Positions 31,868 through 36,982 of a stretch of 51,345 bases of DNA are shown here, one piece after another (the first letter of the stretch is position 1; every line of letters starts with the position of its first letter). The DNA comes from an uncultured Maricaulis sp. (GTDB lineage Bacteria > Pseudomonadota > Alphaproteobacteria > Caulobacterales > Maricaulaceae). The DNA lies in contig NZ_CAJQOO010000038.1 in NCBI RefSeq assembly GCF_905480005.1, positions 1-51,345 of the forward strand, given 5' to 3'. The notes below the pieces were generated by a model. That model was not told where the DNA came from. It saw nothing but the letters and a program-made list of their open reading frames with translations, and did no database searches. Both the position numbers and the translations under genes were made by a program.

Positions 31868-33541
31868 TCAGGCCGCCGCCCTCGGATGGGCGCTCCCGAG
31901 ATGTTCAGCCAGGGCTTCCAGCTGGAGCGGCTTGCCGATACAACCGTCGATGCCCGGTTCGCGATAGCGGGCCCGGTCCTCGTCCAGCGCGCTGGCGGTG
32001 ACGGCAAAAATCGGGGTCTCCGCGTTGAGCGCCGCCTCCTGTCGTATCACTCCGGTGACGCCCAGACCGTCCATGCCCGGCATCTGGATATCCATCAGGA
32101 TCACGTCGAACGCTTCGGCCCGGGCCAGCGCGATGGCTGTGTCCGGCCCTTCGGCCAGACAGGGGTCGTGCCCAAGATGGGTCAGAAGGGCGGCGGCAAC
32201 GGTCAGGTTGATCGGCTGATCATCGACAACAAGGACCCGCAAGGAACGTCCGCTGGAGCGGTCCCGTTCGGCGGTTGCTCCCGCGCCGGCATCCGCAGCC
32301 ACAGCGGTGAGCTCGAAACGGAATGTGGAACCTTTGTCGACCACGCTCTCGACACACAGTGCCGCGCCCATCAGCGCCGTCAGATCACGGCAGATCGCCA
32401 GACCAAGGCCGGTGCCGCCATAGTCCCGCGTTGTCGTTTCGTCGGCTTGTGCGAAGCGGTCGAAAATCCGGTCCTGGGCCTCACGAGACAGACCAATGCC
32501 GCTATCCTCAACCTCTACCATCAGGCGATCAGGCTCGCGATCATGGGCCGTCACGCGCAATATGACGTGGCCATGCTCGGTGAACTTCACGGCATTGCCG
32601 ACAAGGTTCCACAAGACTTGCCGGACGCGCACTGGATCCAGCATGAGCCAGCGCGGCAGGCTATCGTCATATTCCAGGTTCAGGACCACATCCCGGTCCG
32701 CGACCTGAACCGCGAACAGGGCGATAACATCGGTGCACAAGCGGCGCAGATCGCACGCCTCGCGATTGATCGTGATACCACCCTGATCAAGTTTGGTGAC
32801 GTCAAGGATGTCGTTGAGAACCGTCACCAATGCCGTTGCCGAGGCATGGACAGTGGCAACACCCTGCCGGTCAAGGGTGCCATCCTTGCTCTCGCGGGCG
32901 AGTTCGAGAAGTCCCAGCACGCCATTCATTGGCGTGCGTATTTCGTGGCTCATATTGGCAAGAAATGCGGACTTGGCCTGTTCGGCCTTGCGTGACTCCC
33001 TCAACAGGTTTTCTTGCGTCCGGACGAAACCGATCACGCAGATCAGGCTGAGAATACTGACCATGCTCAACAGGAAGAACGCCGCCACGCGTTCAGCATC
33101 CATCGAGTAAGGCGTGGGTGTGATAATGCCCTGCACGCCAAGCAGGAGCAGAAGCGCGAAGAGAATGACCGAGCTGATGCCATAAACTGTCGCGGCCCTG
33201 GCACTCAGAAAGAAGCCGGCCGCGAGCGGGGCGATGAGCTGCAACGGCGCAACATATCCCAGCAAACCCCCATTGGTCAGCGAGGCCGCAAATGCCATCA
33301 GCTGAGCGCCGAGAATAAAGGTATGGGCAACCCAGCGGTACTGGTTGGTCGTCCACGCGATCACGCCCAGCGCGATAAACAGACCGGATGCGAACAGGCC
33401 GAGAGCCTTGGCCGGCGTCCAGCCGGGCAGGGCGAGTGAGACCGCGCCCAGATACGACACCAAAATCAGGCCGAAAACGACACAGGTGATCGCCAGAACG
33501 CGGCCCTTGCCATTGGTTGGACTGTCGGAATGCCGGATCAT
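31868..33541 (-). CDS. Membrane-bound hybrid histidine kinase
   Basis: 557 residues. About six membrane segments (roughly 15-170) have no large extracellular loop, then comes HisKA with phosphoacceptor H199 in NMSHEIRTPMNG, and HATPase_c with NLVGNAVKFTEHG, VEDSGIGL and GGTGLGLAI. A C-terminal receiver domain starts near residue 434 with VLVVDDQPIN and phosphoacceptor D484 in ILMDIQMPGMDG. No phosphotransfer protein or separate regulator is next to it. The ATG at 33541 lacks a well-spaced ribosome site (GGGGAG is about 17 bases upstream), but the next residues are not conserved enough to choose better. The input signal is unknown. Confidence 0.9.
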   Translation of the reverse strand: MIRHSDSPTNGKGRVLAITCVVFGLILVSYLGAVSLALPGWTPAKALGLFASGLFIALGVIAWTTNQYRWVAHTFILGAQLMAFAASLTNGGLLGYVAPLQLIAPLAAGFFLSARAATVYGISSVILFALLLLLGVQGIITPTPYSMDAERVAAFFLLSMVSILSLICVIGFVRTQENLLRESRKAEQAKSAFLANMSHEIRTPMNGVLGLLELARESKDGTLDRQGVATVHASATALVTVLNDILDVTKLDQGGITINREACDLRRLCTDVIALFAVQVADRDVVLNLEYDDSLPRWLMLDPVRVRQVLWNLVGNAVKFTEHGHVILRVTAHDREPDRLMVEVEDSGIGLSREAQDRIFDRFAQADETTTRDYGGTGLGLAICRDLTALMGAALCVESVVDKGSTFRFELTAVAADAGAGATAERDRSSGRSLRVLVVDDQPINLTVAAALLTHLGHDPCLAEGPDTAIALARAEAFDVILMDIQMPGMDGLGVTGVIRQEAALNAETPIFAVTASALDEDRARYREPGIDGCIGKPLQLEALAEHLGSAHPRAAA

Positions 33542-33716
33542 CGAACGACCATTGCTGCACGCTCTCCCCGAACGCCGGCAAAGTCAAAACCGGGAAGGCC
33601 TAGAAAAGGCTTAATCGACACCGAGGCGGGCGATCCGGGGCGCCGCTTTCCGGTCAACCGGGCCCTGTGCGTTGGCCTGTCCGCCCGCGAATGACGGCAT
33701 TCGCCGATAGCACCGC
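33542..33716. other. Upstream part of the kinase / met operon intergenic region
   Basis: The divergent gap between the kinase start (33541) and hom (33902) is about 360 bp. Its right half holds the promoter, operator and riboswitch listed separately. In the left half I see no gene, RNA or clear promoter; a TTAA-rich stretch near 33610 may be part of the kinase promoter. Confidence 0.4.
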
Positions 33717-33744
33717 TTGACACATATAAACATATCTTTATACG
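33717..33744 (+). promoter_or_regulatory. Sigma70-like promoter of the met operon
   Basis: A perfect -35 TTGACA at 33717-33722 is followed after 16 bases by a -10-like TATACG at 33739-33744. Transcription should begin at about 33750, exactly where the SAM-II aptamer begins. The spacer is almost fully occupied by the palindromic operator. Confidence 0.6.
33723..33744. promoter_or_regulatory. Palindromic operator between -35 and -10 (SahR-like candidate)
   Basis: A 22-bp AT-rich near-palindrome, starting CATATAAACAT and ending ATCTTTATACG, with two mismatched pairs. It stands out strongly against the GC-rich background. AT-rich palindromes of the ATAAAGATATCTTTAT kind are, from memory, the style of methionine-cycle ArsR-family regulators such as SahR; the exact regulator is inference. 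Its position would block RNA polymerase. Confidence 0.65.
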
Positions 33745-33749
33745 TGAAG

Positions 33750-33803
33750 TCGCGCCGATTTGATGTCTAGCTTGCGGGCGCGGAACAAGTGCGGCTAAAG
33801 CGG
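33750..33803 (+). ncRNA. SAM-II riboswitch aptamer
   Basis: Fits the SAM-II (metA RNA) consensus of Alphaproteobacteria. P1 pairs CGCGCC (33751-33756) with GGCGCG (33777-33782). The conserved GATTTG follows the 5' strand. The loop has GCTTGC, whose CTTG (33771-33774) can pair with CAAG (33786-33789) to form the pseudoknot. The invariant GCTAAA is at 33794-33799. In known cases S-adenosylmethionine binding hides the ribosome site of metA/metX/metC-type genes. Here the aptamer precedes hom-metX-metB but ends about 98 bases before the first good start codon, longer than usual. Confidence 0.88.
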
Positions 33804-33901
33804 ATCGATCGAGGCACGGCAATCGCCACCCTTTTCAGTCGCCTCGTCAGTATCCCGCAATCGGTGTGTCCGCGCTTTCCGCCCAGACGGAATGTGGAAG
33901 A

Positions 33902-34894
33902 ATGTCCTTGGTTGCGGCCCTTGATTATCCCCTCGATACGCTCCCATCGGAGACCCTGACGCCGCGGCTGCGGGTTGTCCTGCTGGGATGTGGCACCGTG
34001 AATGCCGGCGTTCTGACCGGGCTGGAAGCGATGGAGACGCAGGTCGAGATCGCGGCCATCGTCACCCGCAAACCGCGCCGCCGGGGCGATGAGCGCTATG
34101 CTTGGCTGACCGACATCACCGCCGCGTTCGATACCGGGCCGGACCTCGTCATTGACGGTCTGCCCGATTGCGCGGCGGCCGAGAAAGCCCTGACCCTCGC
34201 GGTTGAGCGCGGCATTCACATCATCTCCGCGAACAAGGCTGTTATTGCGCGGCGTCCGGACCTGGAAGCGCGAGCCCGACGGGCCGGAACAGGCTTCGCC
34301 TATTCTGCGGCAGTCGGAGGCGGGGTCCCGGTGCTGGAAACCGTGGCCCGGCTGAAAGTCGCTGGCGAGACCGTGACCCGGGTGCGCGGCGTCCTCAACG
34401 GCACGTCGAATTTCGTCCTGGGCTTGCTGGAGAAGGGCGTCGGGTTTGATGATGCAATCACAGCCGCACAAGCCGCCGGCTTTGCCGAAGAAGACCCGAG
34501 CGCTGATCTCGACGGTCTGGATGCTGCCGCCAAGCTGGCCCTGATCGCCCGCGCTGCCTTCGATATTGCCCCGGATGCCTATGCCATCGCCGCGGACAGC
34601 CTGTTCGACCTGTCCGTCGGTCAGATTCTGGGCGCGCGGGAAACAGCGCTGCGCTATCGCCAGGTCGCTGAACTCGTCGCGGGCGAAAACGGTGTGACGG
34701 CCAGTGTCCGTCTGATCGCGCTGCCCGAGGACCATCCCCTGGCCCGGGTCGAGAATGAGGAGAATGCGATCGAGGTCTGTTGTGCCAGCGGCACCTCGAT
34801 CGTGCTCAATGGCAAGGGTGCCGGCCAGGCGCCGACGGCGGGCTCTGTCCTCTCCGATGTCCGCGCCCTGCTCGCCGAGGGTCGTCACCGATGA
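33902..34894 (+). CDS. hom: Homoserine dehydrogenase, short form without ACT domain
   Basis: NAD(P)-dependent reduction of aspartate semialdehyde to homoserine, the branch-point precursor of methionine and threonine. 330 residues: nucleotide-binding LLGCGTVNAG near 27, catalytic-type lysine K112 in SANKAVIA, GGGVPVLE, NGTSNFVL (166-173), and the substrate site DPSADLDGLDAAAKLALI. It lacks the C-terminal ACT domain of threonine-regulated enzymes, which fits a copy dedicated to methionine. I use the ATG at 33902, with GGAA about 10 bases upstream; a GTG at 33866 is in frame but unsupported. Its stop overlaps the metX start (ATGA). Confidence 0.88.
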   Translation: MSLVAALDYPLDTLPSETLTPRLRVVLLGCGTVNAGVLTGLEAMETQVEIAAIVTRKPRRRGDERYAWLTDITAAFDTGPDLVIDGLPDCAAAEKALTLAVERGIHIISANKAVIARRPDLEARARRAGTGFAYSAAVGGGVPVLETVARLKVAGETVTRVRGVLNGTSNFVLGLLEKGVGFDDAITAAQAAGFAEEDPSADLDGLDAAAKLALIARAAFDIAPDAYAIAADSLFDLSVGQILGARETALRYRQVAELVAGENGVTASVRLIALPEDHPLARVENEENAIEVCCASGTSIVLNGKGAGQAPTAGSVLSDVRALLAEGRHR

Positions 34895-35829
34895 GCGTCA
34901 CCCTGGAACATCCCCCGGCCCAACGGTATCGGGACCTCTCCACCATCGCCCTCACCGGCACGGGGTCGCCGGTCAAGGTCAGCGGACGGGTCACCGGGCC
35001 GGACGGCGCGCCCGCAATCCTGATCCTCGGCGGCATCTCCTTCGGCCGTATTGTTACGGACACGCCTCAGGAGAATGGCTGGTGGCGCCAGCAGGCTGGA
35101 CCCGGCAAACCCATCGACACCAATCGCTACCGCATCCTGTCCTTCGACTTCATTGGCGCAGACGCCCATCCCTTCCCGACCACACAGGATCAGGCGCGGG
35201 CCATTCTCGCGCTCGCCGATGCGGCCGATATTCGTGAGTTCGCCATTGTCGGCTCATCCTATGGCGGCATGATCGGACTCGCCCTGGCACAGTTGGCGCC
35301 GGAGCGGGTGCGCCAGCTGGTGGTCGTGTCCGCAGCTGATCGGGCGAGCGAGATGACCAAGGCCTGGCGGTCCATCCAGCGCGACACGGTGCAGCTGGCC
35401 CTGCGTCTCGGCGATGGCAAGGCCGGGCTGGACCTCGCCCGCCGCATCGCCGTCACCACCTATCGCACGCCGCAGGAATTCGAGACCCGCTTCTCCGCGC
35501 CGGACCCCGAGAGCCGCGACGCCAGTGGTGTCACGGGCTATCTCGCTGCCCAGGGCGAACGCTATGCCCAGACGGTCGATCCCGAATATTTTCTGGCTCT
35601 CTCGCGCTCCATGGACGAACACCGGGTCGATGTCCGAGCCATTACCTGCCCGGTGACCTGGCTGGCAGCGCTGGAGGATCGACTCGTGCCGGTTGACCAG
35701 ATCGCGGAGGCCGCCAAACGCACCCCCAATGGTCGCCTGATCACCTTCAGTTCGCTCTACGGCCATGACGCCTTCCTCAAGGAAGACGCGATCATCGCCG
35801 CCACTCTGACCGAAATATTCGGGGGCTGA
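34891..35829 (+). CDS. metX: Homoserine O-acyltransferase (MetX, probably succinyl type)
   Basis: Alpha/beta-hydrolase-fold enzyme that acylates homoserine in methionine synthesis. 312 residues with catalytic triad candidates S123 (GSSYGGM), D263 (ALEDRLVP) and H292 (YGHDAF). N-terminal LILGGISFGR and GWWRQQAGPGKPIDTNRYRILSFDFIG match the MetX subfamily of xanthomonads, which uses succinyl-CoA; acyl specificity here is inference. It overlaps hom by 4 bp and ends 1 bp before metB, so the three are tightly coupled. Confidence 0.88.
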   Translation: MSVTLEHPPAQRYRDLSTIALTGTGSPVKVSGRVTGPDGAPAILILGGISFGRIVTDTPQENGWWRQQAGPGKPIDTNRYRILSFDFIGADAHPFPTTQDQARAILALADAADIREFAIVGSSYGGMIGLALAQLAPERVRQLVVVSAADRASEMTKAWRSIQRDTVQLALRLGDGKAGLDLARRIAVTTYRTPQEFETRFSAPDPESRDASGVTGYLAAQGERYAQTVDPEYFLALSRSMDEHRVDVRAITCPVTWLAALEDRLVPVDQIAEAAKRTPNGRLITFSSLYGHDAFLKEDAIIAATLTEIFGG

Positions 35830-35830
35830 C

Positions 35831-36982
35831 ATGTCGAGCGATCAACGCACGAAAGCAATCCGGGCAGGGTTGAATACCGACCGGAGCTGGAATGCTGTCA
35901 TTCCGCCGCTCTCGCTCTCGACGGCCTACCGGCGCGAGGACCCGGCCATCCAGCCGGCATTCGACTATGCCCGCACCGGCAATCCGGGGCGCGCCCTGCT
36001 GGCTGACGCCATTGCCGAACTGGAGAATGCCGCCGGTGCCATCGTCACTGGATCAGGCATGTCAGCGATCGACCTTCTCCTGCACGGACTGCCCCACGGC
36101 GCGCGGGTCCTGTGCTCACATGACGCTTATGGCGGCACTCGGCGCCTCCTCGATGCCCGTGGGCGCGGCGGTCGCCTGGTACCGGTCTATGTCGATACAA
36201 GCGATCTCGACCAGGTCGCCAACGCGCTCAACCAGGACGTCGCCCTCATTATTGCCGAGACGCCGTCCAATCCACGCCTTCGGATCTCTGACCTGGAGGG
36301 CCTGGCCGGCCTGGCGCGCAAGGCCGGGACCGAGCTGGCAGTAGACAATACGGTGATGTCGCCCATCCTGCAGCGGCCGCTGGACTGGGGCGCTGACTAT
36401 TCCGTTCAGTCAGTGACCAAACTGCTCAACGGGCATTCCGACATGGTGGGCGGCGCGCTGTGCTGCGCCAATCCGGAACGCCTGGCCGAGCTCGCCTGGT
36501 GGGCCAATTGCGTTGGCGTCGGCGCCGCCGCCTTTGACAGCTATCTCGCCCTGCGGGGCCTGCGCACGCTTCCGCTACGCGTGCAGGCCCAGTGCGAAAG
36601 CGCCCTCGCCGTGGCTCGCTGGCTGGACGCGGATCCGCGCATTGCCCGCGTTGATTATCCCGGACTGGAAAACCATCCCGGCCATGAACTGGCCGCACGG
36701 CAGCAGGACGGATTTGGTCAATTGATAAGCCTGGAACTGACCGGGGACGCCCCCGACCCGCGAGCTGTCGTCGCCTCGCTTGAAATCTTCACGCTGGCCC
36801 AATCGCTCGGCGGGGTGGAAAGCCTGTGCTGCATCCCGGCCCTGATGACCCATGCTTCCATGTCACCGGAAGCGCGCGCTGAAGCCGGTGTCGCCGACAG
36901 CCTGATACGACTTTCGGTCGGACTGGAGAGCGCCGAGGACCAGATCGCCGATCTCGACAGGGCCTTGTCTTCAGGCCTCTGA
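35831..36982 (+). CDS. metB: Cystathionine gamma-synthase or O-acylhomoserine sulfhydrylase (MetB/MetZ)
   Basis: PLP-dependent trans-sulfuration enzyme using O-acylhomoserine with cysteine (MetB) or sulfide (MetZ). 383 residues: YARTGNPGR near 47-54, ETPSNPRLRI (143-152), the PLP lysine K197 in SVTKLLNGHSD, and the C-terminal LIRLSVGLESAEDQIADLDRAL typical of the family. SHDAYGGTRRLL leans to MetB. It is the third gene of hom-metX-metB and converges with the CDGSH-FMN gene 14 bp downstream. Confidence 0.85.
   Translation: MSSDQRTKAIRAGLNTDRSWNAVIPPLSLSTAYRREDPAIQPAFDYARTGNPGRALLADAIAELENAAGAIVTGSGMSAIDLLLHGLPHGARVLCSHDAYGGTRRLLDARGRGGRLVPVYVDTSDLDQVANALNQDVALIIAETPSNPRLRISDLEGLAGLARKAGTELAVDNTVMSPILQRPLDWGADYSVQSVTKLLNGHSDMVGGALCCANPERLAELAWWANCVGVGAAAFDSYLALRGLRTLPLRVQAQCESALAVARWLDADPRIARVDYPGLENHPGHELAARQQDGFGQLISLELTGDAPDPRAVVASLEIFTLAQSLGGVESLCCIPALMTHASMSPEARAEAGVADSLIRLSVGLESAEDQIADLDRALSSGL

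Follow-up and report, generated by a model that had tools for sequence, protein, structure and literature searches.

A predicted SahR operator and a predicted, diverged SAM-II aptamer stacked at the hom-metX-metB promoter of an uncultured Maricaulis

The window analyzed here is a stretch of 51,345 bp, contig C38 of a 3.07-Mb draft genome (94% complete), and it carries an AT-rich near-palindrome at the promoter of a hom-metX-metB operon. We propose, with a probability of nearly nine in ten, that this palindrome is the operator of the SahR orthologue of the genome, that a SAM-II aptamer follows it, and that the operon is under stacked SAH and SAM control. As a prediction from sequence comparison, the combination of SahR and SAM-II is well supported. 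If it is true, an SAH-responsive repressor and a SAM-responsive RNA switch serve one promoter, and a cell could sense its capacity for methylation in the form of a ratio; the operon gated in this way would be the one making new homocysteine. The elements of the locus are as follows.

33717-33722, plus strand: -35 box TTGACA, read directly, immediately 5' of the palindrome
33721-33746, no strand assigned: predicted SahR operator, a 26-bp near-palindrome with 11 of 13 pairs; 20-bp core at 33724-33743
33739-33744, plus strand: -10 box TATACG, 16-nt spacer; lies within the palindrome's right half and matches at 4 of 6 positions
33751-33806, plus strand: SAM-II (SAM_alpha) aptamer core, RF00521 at 25.4 bits, with the pairs of P1 and P2b counted over 38 distinct sequences
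33751-33756 with 33777-33782, plus strand: aptamer P1, from pair counts
33765-33768 with 33802-33805, plus strand: aptamer pseudoknot P2b, from pair counts
33794-33799, plus strand: conserved GCTAAA of the aptamer
33858-33869, plus strand: candidate anti-P1 segment, able to pair with the 5' strand of P1 plus the GATT next to it; weak
33902-34894, plus strand: hom, homoserine dehydrogenase (PF00742, E 2.2e-44, on the frame from 33866)
34891-35829, plus strand: metX, homoserine O-succinyltransferase family (NF006449, 380.8 bits, cut-off 296)
35831-36982, plus strand: metB/metZ-type Cys/Met metabolism PLP enzyme (PF01053, E 2e-117)

For hom an ATG start was preferred, the open frame reaching back to a GTG at 33866. 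The best NCBIfam match of the metB/metZ-type protein was TIGR02080, with 452.6 bits, below the cut-off of 504.55. Five of the six named relatives of the hom protein were Maricaulis records, 70-92% identical, among them M. maris DSM 4734 at 91%. A hybrid histidine kinase (HisKA, HATPase_c and Response_reg domains) is encoded at 31868-33541 on the minus strand, divergent from the operon.

The original prediction had described an AT-rich near-palindrome after TTGACA. This was borne out: the 22-mer CATATAAACATATCTTTATACG at 33723-33744, as read directly, pairs at 9 of 11 positions, and the palindrome is best given in its wider 26-bp form. It had also been placed between the -35 and -10 boxes; it does occupy the spacer, but it does not fit between the boxes, since its right half contains the -10 box, so that a protein bound at the operator would cover both the spacer and the -10 box. 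AT-richness is usual in promoters, and the palindrome could be imagined as a chance feature of that kind. Pairing of 11 of 13 over 26 bp was found at four places in the 51,345-bp window, the operator alone being AT-rich (at least 18 of 26), and 30 dinucleotide shuffles of the window gave a mean of 1.1 palindromes at 11 of 13 and no AT-rich one of such quality. The palindrome is moreover seen again at metK and metF-metH and is conserved across the family, as detailed below. Chance is already contradicted by these observations, and its probability is close to nil.

The promoter boxes are conserved as well. A hexamer agreeing with TTGACA at five or six positions precedes the palindrome in 37 of 40 aligned loci (own locus included), compared to 3% of nearby upstream control windows; the automatic choice of the box slipped out of register in a few cases (L063, L064, L074, L086), which stay in the counts. 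At the corresponding -10 place, most of the 40 loci have a TATA-type hexamer. A strict promoter scan of 33500-34000 called no promoter; the scan demands a T at position 6 of the -10 box, and TATACG is without it. P1 starts at 33751, the seventh base past the -10 box, and transcription is predicted to start at about the first base of P1.

We examined the occurrence of the operator motif in the rest of the genome. The symmetrised 20-mer, with at most 3 mismatches, was found at three places (reversed control: 0): the operon of the window and two places between metK and metF-metH on contig C95, with no others. The palindrome, for which other methionine-cycle genes had been suggested as further sites, was thus found again beside such genes in the same genome; at metK and metF-metH only the operator half was found. 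The longest metK frame begins beyond one of the C95 sites, and we place the metK start at a later GTG, just past the operator site, since conservation of the protein sets in at that GTG. A 16-mer pattern with 3 mismatches gave 5 further places (C5, C142, C160, C177 and C188; reversed controls 0 and 1). With a loose pattern, ATAT-N4-AT-N4-ATAT, a single TA-rich place was hit, in C83, below control (1 vs 2 per strand), and this was set aside. Two points stand against parts of the reading: no operator is present at ahcY, where the best 20-mer in the 3,789-bp locus has 9 mismatches, and none was found near the own sahR within the fetched flank with up to 5 mismatches allowed.

The protein that would bind the palindrome was searched among ArsR-type regulators. 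The genome has 14 HTH_5 matches, 13 of which belong to open frames no longer than 249 aa. The remaining match, on contig C2 (G000:C2), is a 317-aa protein with ArsR-type and methyltransferase domains, namely PF01022 (HTH_5) at residues 14-58 and PF08241 (Methyltransf_11) at residues 153-249, and is the SahR orthologue. Homologues of this regulator were sought in 99 genomes of the family: 83 had strong matches (E 3.3e-60 or better) and 16 weak ones only. The best 25 sahR loci were fetched, 15 from other genera and 10 from Maricaulis (own included). In the family's other genera, all 15 fetched loci have the palindrome just upstream of the ArsR-methyltransferase gene, which is followed by metF. 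In the flanks fetched for the 10 Maricaulis loci, neither metF nor a site was present, even with 5 mismatches allowed; in Maricaulis sahR has apparently lost its autoregulation and been relocated away from metF.

In relatives, the motif was present in 20 of 21 genomes searched, G103 being the one without it; G800 (69% complete) has two metK/metF sites only. Seventeen of the 19 motif loci fetched from relatives adjoin metK, metF-metH, sahR, hom or metX; four of them, which come from three other families within the order, have sahR-metF. The two loci off the expected genes differ from each other: L130 matches none of eight query proteins, and at L127 the site is preceded by a match, oriented towards it, that is 34% identical to the longest open frame at ahcY.

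These results bear on whether the palindrome could be the site of another regulator, ArsR-type or unrelated, with SahR a bystander. The 14 HTH_5 matches of the genome and the siteless sahR gene in 10 of 10 Maricaulis loci would fit such a case, and SahR binding at the palindrome is itself a prediction. But the motif stands directly before the SahR-type gene in the 15 loci of other genera and in the 4 loci of other families, the neighbours of the sites are methionine-cycle genes, and all 33 operator-aptamer genomes in the 99-genome family sample match SahR strongly, although these genomes are related and not independent, and 83 of the 99 do so in any case. We consider a different regulator very improbable. 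The earlier guess of an ArsR-family, SahR-type repressor is supported by this genomic context and by the orthologue in the own genome, and SahR is retained as the predicted regulator at the operator.

The RNA element was less readily assigned. In the Rfam scan the aptamer fell below the gathering score (25.4 bits vs 36). At a relaxed threshold, the RF00521 match spans 33742-33819, the full model length, with E 0.0011 in a 501-base search, and it is the top RF00521 match genome-wide (E 0.0015). The gathering score was reached neither by the own locus nor by any of 19 relatives (0 of 20 loci), i.e. the Rfam SAM_alpha threshold missed the aptamer in the window and in 19 relatives. A second RF00521 scan covered the own locus and 18 relatives; matches were reported for the own locus (25.4 bits) and for 14 relatives (27.8-33.9 bits), 15 of 19 in all, and four relatives were unreported. 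RF00521 matches at E up to 10 were obtained in 14 of 14 control genomes, none of them over the cut-off. A second SAM-II candidate in the own genome (C32, 20.3 bits, E 0.039) spans just positions 10-42 of the model, with no GCTAAA after it in the stretch read, and was put down to chance.

The structural features of SAM-II are all present: a P1 hairpin, GATTT in the loop, the P2b pseudoknot and GCTAAA. GATTT, the AGCTTGCGGGCGCG stretch and GCTAAAGCG do not vary over the 40 aligned loci, of which 38 are distinct in sequence. In this alignment pairing holds in 100% of cells for P1 and in 87.9% for P2b; two P2b pairs are broken in 15 and 7 of the 38 sequences, and 4 of the 5 P2b pairs show changes on both sides. 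The covariation score of the whole structure was matched by 0 of 500 shuffles and the count of pairs changed on both sides by 21 of 500, and covariation was 0.245 for the named structure vs 0.031-0.102 in slid registers; the structure was named after the sequences had been looked at, and the kinship of the sequences inflates the covariation counts. The SAM-II assignment of the original prediction therefore stands as far as covariation goes, whereas the score stays below the Rfam gathering level, and we take the element as a diverged SAM-II, an assignment supported by the comparison of these leaders.

A less favourable interpretation is that the operator is real but the predicted aptamer has decayed or changed and no longer responds to SAM, SahR controlling the operon alone. 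The low score would be expected in that case; the P2b of the window is weak, with 4 of 5 pairs kept and two of them G-U, and no terminator-like site or intrinsic terminator was found after the aptamer in 33500-34000. Such decay is very improbable in view of the invariant GATTT, AGCTTGCGGGCGCG and GCTAAAGCG segments, the compensatory changes in P2b and the nearly fixed position of the element over the sampled family members.

The conservation of the predicted aptamer next to the operator is best judged from loci chosen by protein similarity, which are free of pattern bias. The best 28 hom loci obtained by protein search (28 genomes, own included, at least 46% identity) all contain the aptamer core together with the operator, at most 5 mismatches being allowed in the latter. 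Both elements are present in 5 of 5 named Maricaulis loci, and M. maris DSM 4734 (L032) offers the module in a named strain. No palindrome was found in two fetched loci of a more distant hom group (L065 and L066), nor in an uncultured Caulobacterales locus (L036) with a hom 33% identical. An exact combined pattern, with its two gaps variable by 3 and 8 bases, was then applied to the order; diverged cases would escape it. Of 398 genomes, 42 had the pattern (43 places in total), every one of them among the 91 sampled from the family. These include 17 of 17 genomes of the genus, and none of the 307 other genomes of the order had it. In a class sample of 385, the window's genome alone was positive for the exact pattern (0 of 384 others).

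The 40 aligned loci comprise 30 from the order-wide search (L067-L096), 8 further positives of that search with a locus from the hom search, and 2 hom-search genomes outside the order-wide sample; G010, G350, G392, G395 and the second G059 copy were left out for want of a locus. The distance from the palindrome core to P1 is distributed as follows: 25 bp in 34 loci, 26 bp in 4 and 24 bp in 2. Downstream of the module, hom-metX is found in 33 loci and metX without a hom match in 7. Genome G059 has two copies of the module (C1:496275 and 538648), each near a copy of hom, and its SahR-like gene holds an in-frame TGA. One in-frame TGA is also present in the hom match of L064 (G088:C1:898913-899917), in which the operator and aptamer sequences are intact.

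Oceanicaulis alexandrii is presumably a relative of the organism of the window. In the available part of Leyn et al. 2014 (PMC4239095), its hom-metXC is given as regulated by SAM_alpha and SahR; both the predicted regulators and the type of operon agree with those of the window. That case concerns one species in one sentence, with no geometry in the available text, whereas the present data concern 40 aligned loci, a near-fixed spacing and metX-first variants. The pairing of SahR with SAM_alpha is not new in kind, having been in print since 2014 for one related species; conservation in the family, geometry and regulon context are added here. A literature search gave no other title on a SahR-riboswitch pairing among the matches listed, and on methionine riboswitches in Oceanicaulis the paper of Leyn et al. 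was the sole result. As far as the available text goes, alpha-proteobacterial SahR regulons (PMC4239095; Ensifer aridi, PMC8877191) share with the window's genome a 20-bp palindrome, an ArsR-family regulator and metK, metH and metF targets, the operator being likened to the published motif by description and not letter by letter with the logo (Figure S1, PMC4239095). The same sources differ from this genome in that here ahcY and sahR are without a site and hom-metX-metB has one; ahcY is listed in the part consulted as a core SahR target, core meaning over 70% of the genomes with SahR (PMC4239095). The SAM-II riboswitches of Sinorhizobium meliloti metA and metZ (PMC9373788) likewise precede methionine genes, and promoter activity there also differs between SAM conditions; SahR is unmentioned in the available text of that paper, whereas the window pairs the aptamer with a predicted SahR operator.

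The mode of action that we infer is the following. SahR on the operator would cover the spacer and the -10 box and block RNA polymerase. SahR proteins elsewhere are released from DNA by SAH. In the available part of PMC8877191 SAH is described as the SahR effector, and at this promoter it would likewise free the operator. The transcript would begin with the SAM-II aptamer and, judging from the riboswitch family, plentiful SAM would turn the operon off. With SAH lifting the SahR block and the aptamer shutting at high SAM, the operon would be expressed solely at high SAH and low SAM, and hom-metX-metB would be made only at a fallen SAM/SAH ratio. A broader proposal, held tentatively at somewhat short of even odds, is that a two-input module of this type has been kept across the family: a repressor site reaching to the -10 box and an aptamer from +1, at near-fixed spacing over the sampled members, with SAH gating initiation and SAM acting afterwards, would form a detector of a fallen SAM/SAH ratio, kept before metX where hom is missing and possibly using a long-range anti-P1 near the start codon.

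The leader beyond the aptamer was examined in this respect. The anti-P1 complementarity of the window is equalled by 26 of 200 shuffles; it is better than chance (10 or fewer of 200 shuffles) in 12 of the 40 loci and not in the other 28, own included. As an anti-aptamer the segment is only suggestive. An anti-P1-like segment lies at roughly equal distance in many Maricaulis loci. Minimum-energy folding, a method blind to pseudoknots, revealed no shape shared by the 14 leaders tried. An inverted repeat TTCCG...CGGAA, seen by eye at 33876-33894, immediately precedes the start codon of hom and may form a hairpin that masks the ribosome binding site; several relatives have similar hairpins before hom.
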